Assembly (NCBI RefSeq): GCF_003201105.1
Contig: NZ_QICJ01000006.1
Location: 186,001 to 250,000 of the forward strand
Source of the DNA: Dyella sp. AtDHG13
GTDB lineage: Bacteria > Pseudomonadota > Gammaproteobacteria > Xanthomonadales > Rhodanobacteraceae
DNA length: 64,000 bases
Reading direction: 5' to 3'
Below, in pieces: positions 6,634-60,827 of the stretch (its first letter is position 1; every line of letters starts with the position of its first letter). The position numbers and the translations under genes were made by a program. The notes beneath the pieces were generated by a model. That model was given only the letters and a program-made list of their open reading frames with translations. It was not told where the DNA came from and did no database searches.

Positions 6634-7045
6634 GGCGACCGTCCACCGTAGCCCGGATGGAGCGCAGCGCAATCCGGGGAAAGTCTGTGTCGGCACCCTG
6701 ACGCGATTCAACCGTTCCGTTCACGCCCGTCATTCCGGCGCAGGCCGGAATCCAGTGGCCTCATGACACGGTTGTCGCGAGGAGCATGCGGCCTTTGGGC
6801 GAAAATCCTGCGTGGTCGCTACTGGATTCCGGCCTGCGCCGGAATGACGGGGTAGGAGGTCTCGGGGAACCTTCGGTGCCGCGCCCCGGTCCAGCCCCTT
6901 GGAAACCGCCCGCTCTGACGCCAGAACCTTTGCCGGGTGGGCCTTGCGGCGCATGCAGGGCCCGGGGGCGCGTGGCATAATCCACGATCTTTTATCAGGT
7001 GTTGTCAGAAAACTCTGTCAATACCGCTACTTGCGAGACAAGCTG
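6634..7045. other. 412-base gene-free gap between tgt and yajC
   Basis: Holds a paired REP-like element (6727-6850) and a possible -10 hexamer CATAAT at 6976-6981, 65 bases upstream of the yajC start. That hexamer lies within a small GTGG-CATAAT-CCAC dyad. No -35 of good quality is visible. The frame of yajC is open back to 6899 but the added residues are not YajC-like. I see nothing else coding here. Confidence 0.6.
6727..6850. repeat. REP-like inverted pair, family A copy 1
   Basis: Left arm CGTCATTCCGGCGCAGGCCG followed by GAATCCAGT; the right arm (6819-6850) is its reverse complement, ending GGAATGACGG. Each arm has its own ATTCCG-N8-CGGAAT dyad, and the two arms face each other over a roughly 60-base spacer. 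Three related pairs occur at 17118, 20883 and 56510; this copy is closest to the one at 56510, including the start of the spacer. The core matches the layout of the neisserial dRS3 repeat (ATTCCC-N8-GGGAAT). Confidence 0.85.
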
Positions 7046-16946: not shown

Positions 16947-17250
16947 CGTCGACACCTTGCGAGGAAACGTGGACGGTCCTGCAGGTGGGAAGCAGCGAGG
17001 GGCGCTCTACAGAACCGGGCGGTTTAGGATACCGCCGGCGCCCGGCGGCATCCAATCCGGCAGGATTTTGCGCGGGCGACCTTTCAGCCGGCTGCCTGCA
17101 AGCCCCGGGTATCCTCACCGTCATTCCCGCGAAAGCGGGAATCCAGTGCCTTTTAGCGCTGAGTGCCAAAGCGAAAGACGCTGGATTCCCGCTTTCGCGG
17201 GAATGACGGCGAGGGGTACAAGACGTTGAGGGAAAACTTTGAGCAGGCTC
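16947..17250. other. 304-base gap between the hydroxylase gene and murU
   Basis: Contains a paired REP-like element at 17118-17209 downstream of murU. The remainder upstream of the hydroxylase gene (16947-17117) should hold its promoter, reading leftward, but I see no clear hexamers. No convincing coding sequence. Confidence 0.55.
17118..17209. repeat. REP-like inverted pair, family A copy 2
   Basis: Left arm CCGTCATTCCCGCGAAAGCG then GGAATCCAG; right arm (17181-17209) is its reverse complement ending GGGAATGACGG, separated by about 33 bases. Each arm contains ATTCCC-N8-GGGAAT, the exact dRS3-type core. It lies downstream of murU and upstream of the hydroxylase gene, where both are read leftward. 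Confidence 0.88.
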
Positions 17251-20459: not shown

Positions 20460-20879
<420 letters not shown>

Positions 20880-20882
20880 TCA

Positions 20883-20964
20883 CCGTCATTCCCGCGCAGG
20901 CGGGAATCCAGTGACTTCAATGGGTTGCGAAAGGCGCTGGATCCCCGCCTGCGCAGGGAAGACG
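20883..20964. repeat. REP-like inverted pair, family A copy 3 (degenerate right arm)
   Basis: Left arm CCGTCATTCCCGCGCAGGCG then GGAATCCAGTG is intact; the right arm (GGATCCCCGCCTGCGCAGGG, then AAGACGG) has decayed. Located between the glnK promoter and the suf promoter. Confidence 0.8.
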
Positions 20965-21051
20965 GCGAGGGCGCCCCCGCGCCCCGCGAGATTGCCCGCA
21001 AACAGCGCATCGCGGCCAGACGGATTCCCGCTTTTGGTGCATCGCCGCGGT

Positions 21052-21088
21052 TTGACCCCCAGGTCATTAATCAGTACCATTTTGGTAC
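21052..21088 (+). promoter_or_regulatory. Promoter with overlapping GTACC-N5-GGTAC operator for the SUF cluster
   Basis: TTGACC at 21052-21057, 17-base spacer, TACCAT at 21075-21080 forms a plausible sigma-70 promoter. The perfect dyad GTACC-ATTTT-GGTAC (21074-21088) covers its -10 region. It sits 32 bases upstream of the Rrf2-type regulator start. An Rrf2-family repressor acting on its own promoter commonly binds in this position, so this is a good candidate for the SUF regulator's operator. Inference, not proven. Confidence 0.6.
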
Positions 21089-21119
21089 CGATTCCCGCAG
21101 TCCCCTGGCCGATATCCCC

Positions 21120-21613
21120 ATGCTCCGCGTCAGCCGACTCACCGACTACGCCACGGTGGTGATGACCTGCATCGCCGCCCACCCGGACGACGTGCTCAGC
21201 ACGGCGCAGATCGCCGATGAGACGCGCCTGGAACTGCCCACCCGGACGACGTGCTCAGCACGGCGCAGATCGCCGATGAGACGCGCCTGGAACTGCCCAC
21301 CGTGAGCAAGCTGCTCAAGTCGCTGGGGCATGCGGGGCTGGTCGAATCCTTCCGCGGCGTCAACGGCGGCTACCGCCTGGCGCGGCCGGCCGGGGAGATT
21401 ACCCTGGCGCAGATCGTCGAAGCGCTGGAAGGCCCCATCGGCATGACCGAATGCAGCCTCGCCGAAGGCCAGTGCGAGCGCGAGTCGCAATGCGGCGTGC
21501 GCGCCAACTGGCAACACGTCAACAGCGTCGTGGACAGCGCGCTGCGCGCCGTCAGCCTGTCCGACATGCTCAAACCACCCAGTCGCCGCATCGATATCCA
21601 TCCGATCGGATGA
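21120..21613 (+). pseudogene. Rrf2-family SUF system Fe-S regulator, frameshifted by a 59-bp tandem duplication
   Basis: The N-terminal part (MLRVSRLTDYATVVMTCIA and following) is in one frame and runs to a stop at 21303-21305, giving 61 residues with a nonsense tail. The rest (VSKLLKSLGHAGLVESFRG onward) continues in another frame to 21613. An exact 59-base duplication (21177-21301) causes the shift. Removing one copy restores a single 144-residue protein with the Rrf2 winged HTH (ADETRLELPTVSKLLKSL) and three Cys ([15 protein letters not shown]) that could hold a 2Fe-2S cluster, as in IscR/SufR-type proteins. A GTG at 21251 could give a truncated 120-residue product lacking the first HTH helices. 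Located directly upstream of sufB, it should sense cluster status. May be a true mutation, a reversible variant or a sequencing/assembly error. Confidence 0.85.
21177..21301. repeat. 59-bp direct tandem duplication inside the SUF regulator
   Basis: Two identical 59-base copies plus a 7-base partial third (GCCCACC), so GCCCACC flanks both junctions. This is the footprint of slippage or unequal exchange at a 7-base microhomology. 59 is 2 modulo 3, hence the frameshift. Confidence 0.97.
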
Positions 21614-21659
21614 ACACGACGCATCCCTCGACCGAACGCGACGACGACAGAAGAACGCC

Positions 21660-23137
<1,478 letters not shown>

Positions 23138-23141
<4 letters not shown>

Positions 23142-23776
23142 GTGCCGTGCGTTCATCGCATTGGGACGCGGTCTACAGCGGGAAAGACGAGGCGAAGACC
23201 AGCTGGTTCCGCCCGCATCTCGACGAGTCGCTGCGCCTGATCGATGCGCTGGACCTGCCGCGCCAGGCGCCCGTGCTGGACGTGGGCGGCGGCCGCTCCA
23301 CCCTGGCCGAGGACCTGCTTGCGCGCGGTTTCAGCGATATCGGCGTGATGGATCTTTCCGCCGTTGCGCTGGATGAAACGAAACAGCGGCTCGGCGAGCA
23401 TGCCGGCCGCGTGCACTGGATGACGGGCGACGTCACCGAAGTCGCGTTGCCGGCCGCGCATTACGCGCTGTGGCACGACCGTGCGGTGTTCCACTTCCTT
23501 GTCGATGCCGAAGACCGCGCGCGTTACGCTGCGGCCATGGCGCATGCGGTGCGCCCCGGCGGCCATGCCGTCATCGGAACCTTCGCGGCCGATGGCCCGA
23601 AACGCTGCAGCGGCCTGCCCGTGGCGCGTTACGACGCTTCGTCGCTCGCCGCGATGTTTGCCTCCGAATTCGAACCCGTTGCCCACAGCCGCGATGTGCA
23701 TCGCACGCCGTCGGGCAACGAACAAGCTTTCACCTACGTCGTGCTCCGTCGCCGTGGCGACGCCGGCCACGCCTGA
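23138..23776 (+). CDS. Class I SAM-dependent methyltransferase inserted in the suf operon
   Basis: 212 residues. Seen: SAM-binding motif [16 protein letters not shown], an acidic end of beta-2 ([17 protein letters not shown]), [11 protein letters not shown], and the post-motif [11 protein letters not shown] with later GGHAVIGTF. Methyltransf_25-type small-molecule methylase by look; substrate unknown. The start overlaps the sufB stop by 4 bases and the sufC ATG is 18 bases after the stop, so it is translated as part of the suf message. I know no established role for a methylase in Fe-S assembly. The last residues (VVLRRRGD) are basic. Confidence 0.9.
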
Positions 23777-23794: not shown

Positions 23795-24561
<767 letters not shown>

Positions 24562-24565
<4 letters not shown>

Positions 24566-25881
24566 GCGAGCCGCAGCGCACCCCATTCGTCGATTCCCTG
24601 CTGGAGGCCGCCGCGCAGGTGCAGCTGCCCGGCACGGGCATCGGCTGGCTGGATGCCGCGCGCCGCGAGAACCTCCAGGCGTTCGCCGCTGGTGGTCTGC
24701 CCGACACGCGCACGGAAGCCTGGAAGTACACCGCGCTCCGCGCGCTCGGCCAGCGACGTTTCGCTGCGGGCGACGCGACAGCGGCGACGCGTCCCGTCGA
24801 CGTGGCGGGCTTTGCCTTGCCGGGCATCGAGGGTCCTTCGCTGGTCTTCGTCAACGGCGTGTTCCGCGCGGATCTTTCGCAGGTGGATCACCTGCCAGCA
24901 GGCCTGAGCCTGCAGCCGCTGTCGCAGGCGCTGCAGGGCGATGCGGAGCCGCTGCGCTTCGCGCTGTCGCGTCATTACCGCGAGGGCGGCGACGTCTTCG
25001 CCCGCCTCAATGCGGCGCTTGCCGGTGACGGCGTGGTGCTGCGCGTGGCGGCGGGAGCGCGGGTCGACCAACCTGTGCGCTTGCTGTTTATCGGCGCGCC
25101 GGCTGAGGGTGCGCTGGCATGGCACGTGCGGCACGTGGTGGAACTGGGCGAAGGCGCGGAGCTTTCGCTGGTCGAGCAGCATGTGTCGCTGGGCGCGCAT
25201 CAGGACCTGGGCACGCAGGTGGCCGACATCGTGTTGCGCAAGGGCGCGACGCTGCGCCACGTGACGCTGCAGCATGCCTCGGAAGGCAGTGCGCTGGTGC
25301 GTCATGACAGTGTCCACCTGGATGCCGACGCCCATGCGGCGATGTACGTGATGGAGCTGGGCGGCTCGCTGGTGCGTCACGATCTGCACGCCGTGCTGGC
25401 GGGCGACCGCTCCCGCCTGGATACGCGCGGCGTGTTTGCGCTGCGCGGCCGGCAGCATGTCGATACGCAGATGTCGATCCGCCACCAGGCCTTGAACACG
25501 GCATCGGAATCCGTGTGGCGCGGCGTGGCCGACGAGCGTTCGCGCGGTGTGTTCCGCGGCGCCATCGTGGTGGCCGAGGGCGCGGACGGCAGCGACGCCA
25601 GCCTCAGCAGCAAGAACCTCCTGCTCTCCGGCCAGGCCGAGATCGACACCAAGCCCGAGCTGGAAATCTACGCGGACGAAGTGAAGGCCGCGCACGGCGC
25701 CACTGTCGGCCAGCTCGATGAGCGCTCGCTGTTCTACCTGCGCTCGCGCGGCATCCCGCTGGCGGAAGCCCGCGCCATGCTCACCGCCGCCTTCTGCCGC
25801 GCCGTGTTCGACGGCCTGGCGGATGACGGCCTGCGCGAGCACATCAACAACCAGCTGATGACGCACCTGCCCTCCGCCTGA
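24562..25881 (+). CDS. sufD: Fe-S cluster assembly protein SufD
   Basis: SufB paralogue that completes the SufBC2D scaffold and supports iron entry. 439 residues. Seen: N-terminal helical region with DTRTEAWKYTALRAL, the beta-helix core, and the SUF C-terminal motif (LEIYADEVKAAHGATVGQLDE) with FYLRSRGIPLAEARAML. Shorter and more variable in the N-terminal half than SufB, as usual. Start ATGA overlaps sufC stop. Thirty-five bases separate it from sufS. Confidence 0.95.
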
Positions 25882-25916: not shown

Positions 25917-27164
25917 ATGAACGCACAGACCCGCCCGAGCCCGACTGTTTTCGACGTGCAGCGCGTTCGCGCCGATTTCCCGCTGCTGTCACGCACCGTG
26001 CACGACAAGCCGCTGATCTATTTCGACAACGCCAACACCAGCCAGAAACCGTTGAGCGTGATCGAGGCGGTGGACCAGCATTACCGCCTGCGCAACGCCA
26101 ACGTGTCGCGCGCGGTACACCTGCTCGGCGAGGAAGCCACGGCGGCCTATGAAGGCTCCCGCGACAAGCTGGCGCGCTTCATCAACGCGACCTCGCGCAA
26201 CGAGGTGATCCTCACCTCGGGCACCACGCAGGCGATGAACCTGATTGCCTACAGCTTCGCGATGCCGCGGCTGAAGGAAGGCGACAGCATCCTCACCACC
26301 GTGATGGAGCACCACGCCAACATCGTGCCGTGGCAGATCGTGGCCTCGCGCACAGGCGCCACGGTGAAGGCCGCGCCCATCGACGACCGCGGCGAGCTGA
26401 TCCTCGACAAGTATTTCGAGATGCTCACGCCCGACGTGAAGCTGGCCTGCGTCACTCACGTGTCCAACGTGCTGGGCACGGTCAACCCGGTGCGCGAGAT
26501 CGCCCGCGAATGCCGCAAGCGCGGCATCCCGCTGGTAGTGGATGGCTCGCAGGCCGTGCCGCATCGGCCGGTGGACGTGCAGGCCATTGGCTGCGACTTC
26601 TACGCCTTCACCGGGCACAAGATGCTGTCGCCCACGGGCACCGGCGGGTTGTGGGCGCGCAAGGAACATCTGGAAGCCATGCCGCCGTTCTTCGGTGGCG
26701 GCGAGATGATCCGTGAGGTGAGCTTCTCCGGCACCACCTTCGCCGCGCCGCCGCACAAGTTCGAGGCGGGCACGCCGAACATCGCGGGCTTTGCCGGCGT
26801 GGGCGCGGCCATCGACTACTACGATTCGATCGGCTTCGACGCCATCCATGCGTGGGAGCAGCAGTTGCTCGCGTATCTGACCGAGCGCCTGCGCGACATT
26901 CCGGGCCTGCGCCTGTTCGGCGAGGCGCGCGAGAAGGAGCCGGTGGTTTCCTTCCTGATCGAAGGCGCGCAGGCGACCGACCTCGCCACGCTGCTGGACC
27001 TGCAAGGCGTGGCGGTGCGCTCCGGCCACCATTGCGCGCATCCGCTGATGCAGTTCTTCAAGGTGCCGGCCACACTGCGTGCCTCGCTCGCGTTCTACAA
27101 CACGCGCGAGGAAGTGGATGCCTTCATCACCGCGCTGCTCAAGGTACGCAAGCTGCTGATGTGA
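25917..27164 (+). CDS. sufS: Cysteine desulfurase SufS
   Basis: PLP enzyme that strips sulfur from cysteine and feeds it to the SUF machinery. 415 residues. Seen: PLP-binding Lys in FTGHKMLSPTGTGGLWA (Lys 235), VTHVSNVLGTVNPV, the upstream TSGTTQAMNLIA, and the active-site Cys in RSGHHCAHP (Cys 373). Group II desulfurases need SufE or SufU to accept sulfur; neither is in the window. AAAGG lies before the ATG. The following gene is a PLP decarboxylase 65 bases on. Confidence 0.97.
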   Translation: MNAQTRPSPTVFDVQRVRADFPLLSRTVHDKPLIYFDNANTSQKPLSVIEAVDQHYRLRNANVSRAVHLLGEEATAAYEGSRDKLARFINATSRNEVILTSGTTQAMNLIAYSFAMPRLKEGDSILTTVMEHHANIVPWQIVASRTGATVKAAPIDDRGELILDKYFEMLTPDVKLACVTHVSNVLGTVNPVREIARECRKRGIPLVVDGSQAVPHRPVDVQAIGCDFYAFTGHKMLSPTGTGGLWARKEHLEAMPPFFGGGEMIREVSFSGTTFAAPPHKFEAGTPNIAGFAGVGAAIDYYDSIGFDAIHAWEQQLLAYLTERLRDIPGLRLFGEAREKEPVVSFLIEGAQATDLATLLDLQGVAVRSGHHCAHPLMQFFKVPATLRASLAFYNTREEVDAFITALLKVRKLLM

Positions 27165-56462: not shown

Positions 56463-56509
56463 GGCTCTTGGCGCCTGTTCAGATCTTCTGAGCAACGCCC
56501 GTTCCCTCG

Positions 56510-56638
56510 CCGTCATTCCGGCGCAGGCCGGAATCCAGTGGCTTCATGGCGCGGTTTTCGCAGACGACTCCATGTTTTGACGTCACGCGATAACCGGTCA
56601 CTTTCGCTACTGGATTCCGGCCTGCGCCGGAATGACGC
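56510..56638. repeat. REP-like inverted pair, family A copy 4
   Basis: CCGTCATTCCGGCGCAGGCC then GGAATCCAGTGGC; right arm (56606-56638) is its reverse complement with TGGATTCCGGCCTGCGCC. Nearly the same as copy 1 at 6727, including the start of the spacer (CTTCATGGCGCGGTT versus CCTCATGACACGGTT). It lies between the gloA and M28 peptidase stops, which are convergent. Confidence 0.9.
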
Positions 56639-59441: not shown

Positions 59442-60827
59442 ATGACCCAGCATCTCCAGCGCCGCCTGACGCCGCGCCATATCACCTTCATGGCGCTTGG
59501 CATGGCCATCGGCGCCGGCCTGTTCCTGGGCTCGGCCGATGCGATCAAGCTGGCCGGCCCGTCCGTGCTGTTCGCCTATATGGTGGGCGGCGTGATGATC
59601 TTCATCATCATGCGCGCGCTGGGCGAGATGACCGTGCGCGCCCCGGTGCCCGGCTCCTTCGCCGTCTACGCGCAGCGTTACCTGGGTCCGTTCGCGGGAT
59701 ACGCCACCGGCTGGAACTACTGGCTGCTGATGGTGGGTGTGGGCATGGCCGAGGCCACCGCCGTCGGCGCCTACATGCAGACGTGGTTCCCCGATTGGCC
59801 ACGCTGGATCTGGGTGCTGGCCAGCGTGGTGATGATCGGCGGCCTGAACCTGCTCACCGTGAAGATCTATGGCGAGATGGAATTCTGGTTCACCCTGATC
59901 AAGGTGGTCACGGTGCTGGCGATGATCGCCGGCGGCCTGGCCATCATCTTCCTGGGTTGGGGCAATGGCGGCCAGCCGACGGGGTTGTCCAACCTGTGGT
60001 CGCAGGGCGGCTGGTTTCCGCATGGCGTGCTCGGCATGGTGATGGCATTGCCCGTGGTGGTGTTCTCCTTTGGCGGCGTGGAAACCGTGGGCATCGCGGC
60101 GGGCGAGGCGGCGCAGCCGGAGCGCACCATCCCGCGGGCGGTGAACTCGGTGCTGTGGCGCATCCTGATCTTCTACGTCGGCGCGCTGTTCGTGATCATG
60201 GCGATCTACCCGTGGACGGGACTGGGCGAGCACGGCAGCCCCTTCGTCACCACCTTCGCCAAGCTGGGCATTCCGCAGGCGGCGGGCCTGATCAACTTCG
60301 TGGTGATTACGGCAGCATTGTCCGGTTTCAACAGCACCACCTTCAGCGGCAGCCGCATGCTCTACAGCCTGGCCTGCAAGGGGCAGGCGCCGGCGGCACT
60401 GGGCCAGGTGAACGGGCAGGGCGTGCCGGTGCGCGCCATTCTGGCGACGCTGGCGGTGCTGCTGCTGGCGGTGCTGCTGAACTACCTGCTGCCGGCCAAG
60501 GTGTTCGGCATGATGATGTCCATCTTGTCGTTCAACACGGTGTGGACATGGACGATGGTGCTGCTGGCCCACTACAGCTTTCGCCGGCAGTTGCGTGAGA
60601 GGGGCGAGGCGCCGTCGGGCTTTCGCCTGCGCTGGTGGCCATTCAGCGGCATCGTGTGCCTGGCGTTCTTCGGTTTCGTGGTGGTGATGCTGGGCGTGAA
60701 CTCGGAGACGCGCGTGGCGCTTTACGTGGGCGCGGCGTGGATTTTCCTGCTGAGCATCGCGTATCACCTTTGCGGTGTTCACCAGCGCATGTTGCGCATG
60801 GAGCCGCCTGTTGCCGAAGGGGCGTGA
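59442..60827 (+). CDS. Amino acid permease (APC superfamily, AAT/GABA-permease type)
   Basis: 461 residues. Seen: twelve hydrophobic helices, the APC hallmark GMAIGAGLFLGSADAIKLAGPSVL in TM1, GFNSTTFSGSRMLYSLACKGQAPAALG (loop signature), and LRERGEAPSGFRLRWWPF near the C-terminus typical of ProY/GabP/AnsP permeases. Imports an amino acid by proton symport; which one is not clear. Genes for rhomboid and Asp/Glu racemase flank it, the latter fitting amino-acid handling. Confidence 0.92.
   Translation: MTQHLQRRLTPRHITFMALGMAIGAGLFLGSADAIKLAGPSVLFAYMVGGVMIFIIMRALGEMTVRAPVPGSFAVYAQRYLGPFAGYATGWNYWLLMVGVGMAEATAVGAYMQTWFPDWPRWIWVLASVVMIGGLNLLTVKIYGEMEFWFTLIKVVTVLAMIAGGLAIIFLGWGNGGQPTGLSNLWSQGGWFPHGVLGMVMALPVVVFSFGGVETVGIAAGEAAQPERTIPRAVNSVLWRILIFYVGALFVIMAIYPWTGLGEHGSPFVTTFAKLGIPQAAGLINFVVITAALSGFNSTTFSGSRMLYSLACKGQAPAALGQVNGQGVPVRAILATLAVLLLAVLLNYLLPAKVFGMMMSILSFNTVWTWTMVLLAHYSFRRQLRERGEAPSGFRLRWWPFSGIVCLAFFGFVVVMLGVNSETRVALYVGAAWIFLLSIAYHLCGVHQRMLRMEPPVAEGA

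Follow-up and report, generated by a model that had tools for sequence, protein, structure and literature searches.

The stretch of DNA analyzed here, referred to as the window, comprises 64,000 nucleotides of Dyella sp. AtDHG13 (C6:186001-250000) from a genome of 5,095,498 bases in 32 contigs that is 100% complete. It contains a suf operon with the gene order regulator-sufB-MTase-sufC-sufD-sufS, and the features of this locus are collected in Table 1. A preliminary description of the window had placed the regulator directly upstream of sufB-sufC-sufD-sufS. Its position upstream of sufB stands, with 46 bases between the regulator stop codon and the sufB start and with sufC, sufD, and sufS further downstream, but a 212-codon methyltransferase gene (MTase) lies between sufB and sufC. 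This gene overlaps the end of sufB, and a relative of it follows sufB in 18 of the 80 named loci of relatives, which extend no further than 2.5 kb beyond the regulator match, some of them less; its presence in the suf operon thus looks patchy. The assembly genes sufB, sufC, sufD, and sufS are themselves intact in AtDHG13. The interval separating the suf promoter from the P-II gene also holds an imperfect palindrome with 41-nt arms and the core ATTCCCGC...GCGGGAAT (20877-20971). Other copies lie in the window at 17113-17215, 6727-6763, and 56504-56546, more are present in the sampled 400 kb of AtDHG13, and the palindrome recurs in at least 10 of 20 genus genomes; it looks like a REP/MITE-type element.

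Table 1. Features of the suf locus in Dyella sp. AtDHG13. Positions are those of the window.
Feature	Position	Strand	Basis
Predicted sigma-70 promoter TTGACC-17-TACCAT, -10 box inside the inverted repeat	21052..21080	+	1 found, 0.1 expected in shuffles
Operator-like inverted repeat AATCAGTACC-ATTTT-GGTACCGATT, 10 of 11 pairs matched	21069..21093	+	inverted-repeat match, relatives
Truncated regulator ORF, 61 aa: 41 native and 20 out-of-frame residues	21120..21305	+	sequence; TIGR02944
First copy of the 59-bp tandem duplication	21177..21235	+	sequence, Tandem Repeats Finder
Second 59-bp copy, 100% identical to the first	21236..21294	+	sequence, Tandem Repeats Finder
Downstream frame from GTG 21251, 120 aa: alpha2, alpha3, wing, three-Cys loop, and long helix, lacking alpha1	21251..21613	+	TIGR02944; model
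Third GCCCACC, the 7-bp junction homology	21295..21301	+	sequence
Possible reinitiation frame from GTG 21302, 103 aa, lacking alpha1, alpha2, and the start of alpha3	21302..21613	+	sequence; TIGR02944
sufB	21660..23141	+	NF008773, 906.9 bits
Class I SAM methyltransferase gene, between sufB and sufC	23138..23776	+	PF13649
sufC	23795..24565	+	profile match
sufD	24562..25881	+	profile match
sufS	25917..27164	+	profile match

The regulator gene is present in pieces, each of which matches TIGR02944 (suf_reg_Xantho), the profile for a "SUF system Fe-S cluster assembly regulator". The tail read from GTG 21251 scores 132.6 bits over profile residues 26-130, above the cut-off of 110.65, and the tail read from GTG 21302 falls slightly under the cut-off at 108.9 bits. 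The head alone scores 46.4-46.5 bits, also under the cut-off, over profile residues 1-42. For reference, the one-copy relative L084 scores 169.4 bits. In an alignment of L084 (L084:2167-2598) with 28 relatives (alignment A1, 29 sequences chosen of 106 loci), residues C92, C99, and C105 are invariant in all 29 and are found in the tail of the window's gene as well; D9 and R108 are likewise invariant in 29 of 29. An AlphaFold model of L084, built with the same 28 relatives (mean pLDDT 79.8), places alpha1 at residues 6-19, alpha2 at 28-35, alpha3 at 39-51, strands at 55-58 and 64-67, and a long helix at 102-124. The three Cys occupy the loop before the long helix, as in Rrf2 proteins, and the Cys loop (91-96) is modeled with low confidence. 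The earlier assignment of the gene to the Rrf2-type, three-Cys SUF regulators is thus upheld by the above-cut-off score of the tail and by the invariant Cys residues.

As expected for TIGR02944, the gene heads the suf operon, and in all 80 named relatives the locus also contains a sufB match. The family as a whole carries the regulator widely: 227 of 233 genomes have a TIGR02944 match, which lies above the cut-off in 225. The two genomes with matches below the cut-off only, G113 and G049, are 80% and 86% complete in 510 and 380 contigs, respectively, and their weak matches are perhaps other Rrf2-like genes or reflect missing sequence. Five of the six genomes that have no match are at most 89% complete and the sixth is 95% complete. 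We also considered recurrent breakage of the regulator as a sign of selection, and rejected it upon finding no internal stop among the family matches listed.

Within the regulator gene, a 59-bp unit is duplicated in tandem with copies that are 100% identical. GCCCACC occurs three times, the last occurrence contributing 7 more matching bases, so the perfect duplication with this heptamer at each junction is as initially described. Tandem Repeats Finder gives it the highest score of six rows in the window (250, the second being 62). In a scan of 464,000 bases of the AtDHG13 genome (the 64-kb window plus 20 stretches of 20 kb), it was the only perfect tandem duplication with a period of 16-1000; the other match of the scan was one 15-bp unit at 60449. 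As 59 is not divisible by 3, the frame is lost. The frame from ATG 21120 runs for 61 codons to a TGA at 21303-21305, and the remainder lies in a different frame, open from 21221 to 21610 (130 codons) with a stop at 21611-21613, leaving no single continuous frame for a complete TIGR02944 protein. When the head piece (21120-21242, 41 codons) is joined to the tail piece (103 codons from V42 at 21302), the sum is 144 codons, the gene length in the closest relatives; the shifted frame and the 144-residue one-copy protein of the preliminary description were both recovered in this way.

To place the duplication among relatives, we compared 106 related regulator loci, of which 80 are named relatives (the best 80 of 216 places encoding a relative) and 26 come from 19 of 19 other genus genomes. 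These sets overlap and represent 85 distinct genes besides the window's own; three loci without the regulator (L109-L111) and the window's own two (L001 and L082) were omitted. Since the query was the tail only, from residue 25, an earlier break could not have excluded a locus. None of the 106 loci contains the duplication: all have one copy, with head and tail in one frame of 144-183 codons. One-copy relatives carry GCCCACC or a variant of it at the codons matching 21295-21301, and the pair of heptamers that would seed the event is found in 5 of the 106 loci (one genome being counted twice) and is not conserved even within the genus. In G012, for instance, which is 93% identical over window positions 21234-21700, a single copy is present with GCTGCCCACC at both sites, amounting to 10 matching bases. 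The preliminary description had reasoned that one-copy homologues in all sister strains would make the duplication strain-private and probably accidental, and at the species level this is what we found at 106 of 106 loci. With one genome compared per species, these alignments indicate that the duplication is strain-private at the species level.

The tail bears the signature of recent constraint. Across 104 codons, comparison with L084 shows 12 synonymous and 0 non-synonymous codon differences; the corresponding counts are 18 and 1 for L083 and 21 and 1 for L095, and five more distant relatives differ by 11-23 synonymous and 5-10 non-synonymous codons. Judged by these codons, the tail is a sequence constrained until lately, under a constraint that predates the duplication. 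The identity of the two copies, together with this late constraint, argues that the duplication is recent.

We next considered how the joint was formed. A short direct repeat (GCCCACC, 7 bp) is present at the unit ends, as slipped replication would require, and a random breakpoint would have at least 7 bp of homology with a frequency of 0.00078 at period 59 (mean 0.00143 and maximum 0.00507 for periods 40-119). Because 7-bp junction homology is expected at only ∼1 in 700-1300 breakpoints, the joint looks like the product of slipped replication between pre-existing short repeats. A slippage hotspot was rejected: counting direct repeats of at least 7 bp at a spacing of 20-150, the one-copy gene of six relatives has 4-10 per 435 bp, compared to ∼10 expected from the window density of 22.8 per kb. 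The same homology bears on whether the draft assembly or library introduced the duplication in error, through chimeric reads or faulty gap closing, in which case the cell would be one-copy and its regulator normal. That the genome is a draft of 32 contigs and that every examined relative has one copy would fit such an error. Against it, a blind joint would have 7 bp of homology only at the frequency given above (1 in 200 at the worst period), no further perfect tandem duplication exists in the 464 kb scanned, and the site, at C6:207 kb, is at least 42 kb from both contig ends. Moreover, a k-mer assembly requires that the joint exist in the reads. We therefore regard an artefact as unlikely, though it is the alternative that survives best.

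If the duplication is real, the products of the broken gene have to be considered. According to the model, the 61-residue product would be native to residue 41, reach barely into alpha3, and lack the Cys loop. It is conceivable that the split gene works in part, with a 120- or 103-residue product that still dimerizes and binds Fe-S and serves as an altered or dominant-negative regulator. The tail frame, open for 130 codons and recently constrained, is consistent with this, and GTG 21302 overlaps TGA 21303 (GTGA) in a manner that could couple reinitiation. A partial product from GTG 21251 had been suggested previously with the loss of the first HTH helices; such a 120-residue product is possible and would begin at V25, but in the model it loses alpha1 only, retaining alpha2 and alpha3 as well as the wing and the Cys loop. 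Both products, however, lack alpha1 and with it the invariant D9, which the model locates on this helix. In passages of the ScNsrR literature, Asp8 on alpha1 serves as a ligand to the cluster of the partner subunit, while Arg12 contacts the HTH (PMC5411485), and by analogy D9 may play the part of Asp8 in the TIGR02944 regulator. In addition, neither GTG has a good ribosome-binding site by eye, although nor does the native ATG, and the constraint observed on the tail is older than the duplication. We thus consider a partly working split gene improbable. Rescue by a programmed frameshift was rejected, as it needs a -1 shift in 21221-21302 and no X-XXY-YYZ heptamer occurs in 21200-21302.

The preliminary description had further proposed that the duplication, reversible by slippage at the 7-base repeat, could act as an on/off switch. 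Under such phase variation, one copy would turn the regulator on and two would turn it off, giving cells with and without suf feedback. The two-copy state would then be a naturally selected, readily reversible off-state in which a population keeps a fraction of cells with Fe-S assembly at a constitutively high level, prepared for iron loss or oxidants, and regains control when the 66-bp repeat loses one copy. Our results do not bear this out. Reversal would use 66 bp of repeat instead of 7, which makes the reaction lopsided (7 bp for formation versus 66 bp for loss). The duplication is absent from all 106 related loci, whereas a phase-variable duplication would be expected in more than one lineage; the seeding pair, at 5 of 106, is not conserved in the genus; and short direct repeats, at 4-10 in the gene of each of six relatives, do not exceed the ∼10 expected from the window. 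What speaks for a switch is the 66-bp perfect repeat itself, whose loss should greatly outpace its formation, and precedent. As reported in part of the cited work, frame-breaking duplications in capsule genes of Streptococcus pneumoniae cause reversible, high-frequency phase variation (Waite 2001, 2003; PMC4243769, PMC4022640), and among promoter tandem repeats of M. tuberculosis, one of them a 57-bp duplication, copy number varies at 10^-2 to 10^-3 per chromosome within isogenic populations (PMC12817950, in the passages available). Our literature searches on iscR loss in evolution experiments and on RecA-independent tandem-repeat loss returned nothing directly usable. Overall, both a phase-variable regulator and a selected off-state are the least probable of the readings considered here, while chance reversion to one copy is plausible.

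Upstream of the regulator, TTGACC-17-TACCAT is the sole promoter-like site of the region, and the operator-like repeat at 21069-21093, which overlaps the predicted -10 box of the operon, is intact in AtDHG13. The native ATG has no recognizable ribosome-binding site by eye in 21080-21120, and the leader after the predicted -10 box would be only ∼30 bases. Upon searching with a 23-base version of the operator and up to 3 mismatches, we found exactly one place in each of 20 genomes (AtDHG13 and 19 others of the genus), in each case immediately upstream of the regulator gene, and none with the backwards control; opposite-strand rows of this search are the same palindrome. Each of the 80 named Rhodanobacteraceae-type relatives has a relaxed operator, with up to 3 substitutions, no more than 150 bases from the start. 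The promoter pattern was also found in all 80, with L077 and L080 differing in the -35, but its conservation is not independent of that of the operator, since the palindrome includes the -10 box. Of the 106 loci, 34 retain the perfect inner inverted repeat, and the commonest form among relatives has an altered right half-site. Elsewhere in the AtDHG13 genome, the search for a wider regulon gave no second target, although a looser site might have escaped it: the exact operator core is present once, and allowing up to 2 mismatches added nothing to it. In that search only the exact match counts, as the backwards control gave 2 matches versus the real 1.

A predicted operator that overlaps the promoter of its own operon is the arrangement of an autoregulatory repressor. 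In passages of PMC9973013, holo-RisR of Myxococcus xanthus represses suf from a site that overlaps the -10 and -35 boxes. We infer that the AtDHG13 suf regulator acts as a repressor because the operator-like site covers the -10 box, as with RisR, and from its relatives. Our literature search for TIGR02944 regulators found no operator described, and work on the IscR of X. campestris may already give one; a search for papers that mention Dyella together with the suf operon found none. The 25-bp repeat at 21069-21093, which the preliminary description did not include, is a concrete, testable candidate binding site for TIGR02944 regulators, and this is the more general gain of the analysis.

Whether another system or regulator could compensate was assessed by profile searches. 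An IscU/NifU/SufU-type scaffold (PF01592) was detected in 0 of 20 genus genomes, compared to 12 of 14 control genomes. Because this scaffold was not detected, SUF is probably the only assembly system of AtDHG13; X. campestris is described as SUF-only in passages of PMC6599224. PF02082 has one match in AtDHG13, which is the broken gene itself, and the 19 other genus genomes have 1-4 matches each, counting weak ones. The genome search found no other Rrf2 protein to take over in AtDHG13.

Taken together, the identical copies, the broken frame, the one-copy relatives, and the operator-like site suggest that a recent, strain-private slippage duplication inactivates suf's own Rrf2-type repressor and derepresses suf without a dedicated switch, and we consider this explanation probable. 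Slipped replication between two 7-bp GCCCACC repeats 59 bp apart would have duplicated 59 bp of the repressor gene. Translation would leave the frame and end after 61 codons, in the recognition helix and ahead of the Fe-S ligands, and a working repressor should not be made. With the shared promoter's operator, which covers the -10 box, left intact, the regulator-sufB-MTase-sufC-sufD-sufS transcript should lose feedback repression and become constitutive, a state that the cell would tolerate because the assembly genes are intact. The duplication may either have been swept along in a bottleneck or have been favored by selection during isolation or stress. Loss of regulator activity and suf derepression are hence predicted from the gene and its upstream region, and the earlier expectation that losing this regulator alters control of Fe-S assembly appears likely, given the broken frame and the conserved inverted repeat over the promoter. 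As a mutation, the duplication looks like an ordinary loss of function, possibly selected and revertible by chance. AtDHG13 would then be a natural experiment, a probably SUF-only bacterium with a broken suf repressor and an intact operator-like site, and would show whether feedback control of Fe-S assembly is dispensable.

Compared to known systems, AtDHG13 shares with other TIGR02944 loci a regulator gene at the head of the suf operon and differs from them in a frame broken by duplication, such that the halves are read separately. RisR resembles the proposed AtDHG13 regulator as an Rrf2 repressor of suf whose site lies over the promoter hexamers, but, in the parts of PMC9973013 consulted, its core palindrome is GAC-N7-GTC, as opposed to AATCAGTACC-N5-GGTACCGATT in AtDHG13, and it controls isc too, whereas no IscU-type scaffold was detected in AtDHG13. 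IscR of Escherichia coli and Xanthomonas campestris likewise belongs to the Rrf2 family and has three Cys. The X. campestris protein was reportedly treated by Fuangthong in 2015, as cited in PMC6599224. L084, however, reaches only 71.5 bits against the IscR cut-off of 207.55 and is not an IscR equivalog, and the Cys spacing is C92-X6-C99-X5-C105 in the TIGR02944 relatives compared to C92-X5-C98-X5-C104 in IscR. The cluster ligands of IscR include His107 (PMC6599224, in part), a position taken by R108 in each of the 29 aligned relatives, and this speaks against ligation as in IscR. With its invariant D9 and R108 and its C-X6-C-X5-C spacing, the TIGR02944 set looks nearer to ScNsrR than to IscR, as far as passages of PMC5411485 describe the former. 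The TIGR02944 regulator may hold a [4Fe-4S] cluster.

Mutants that have lost a regulator to a short duplication are a familiar type. OqxR of Klebsiella pneumoniae is also an Rrf2 protein. According to passages of PMC11373524, 24-bp duplications recur in its repressor gene, oqxR, among selected mutants, so that there, as is predicted for the AtDHG13 regulator, a short perfect tandem duplication abolishes the gene product. The oqxR duplications preserve the frame and are drug-selected, whereas the AtDHG13 duplication breaks the frame and has no known selection. In the pneumococcal capsule genes, as is predicted for the AtDHG13 regulator, the product is abolished by a duplication within the gene, and there the change is reported to be reversible (PMC4243769, PMC4022640, each in part).
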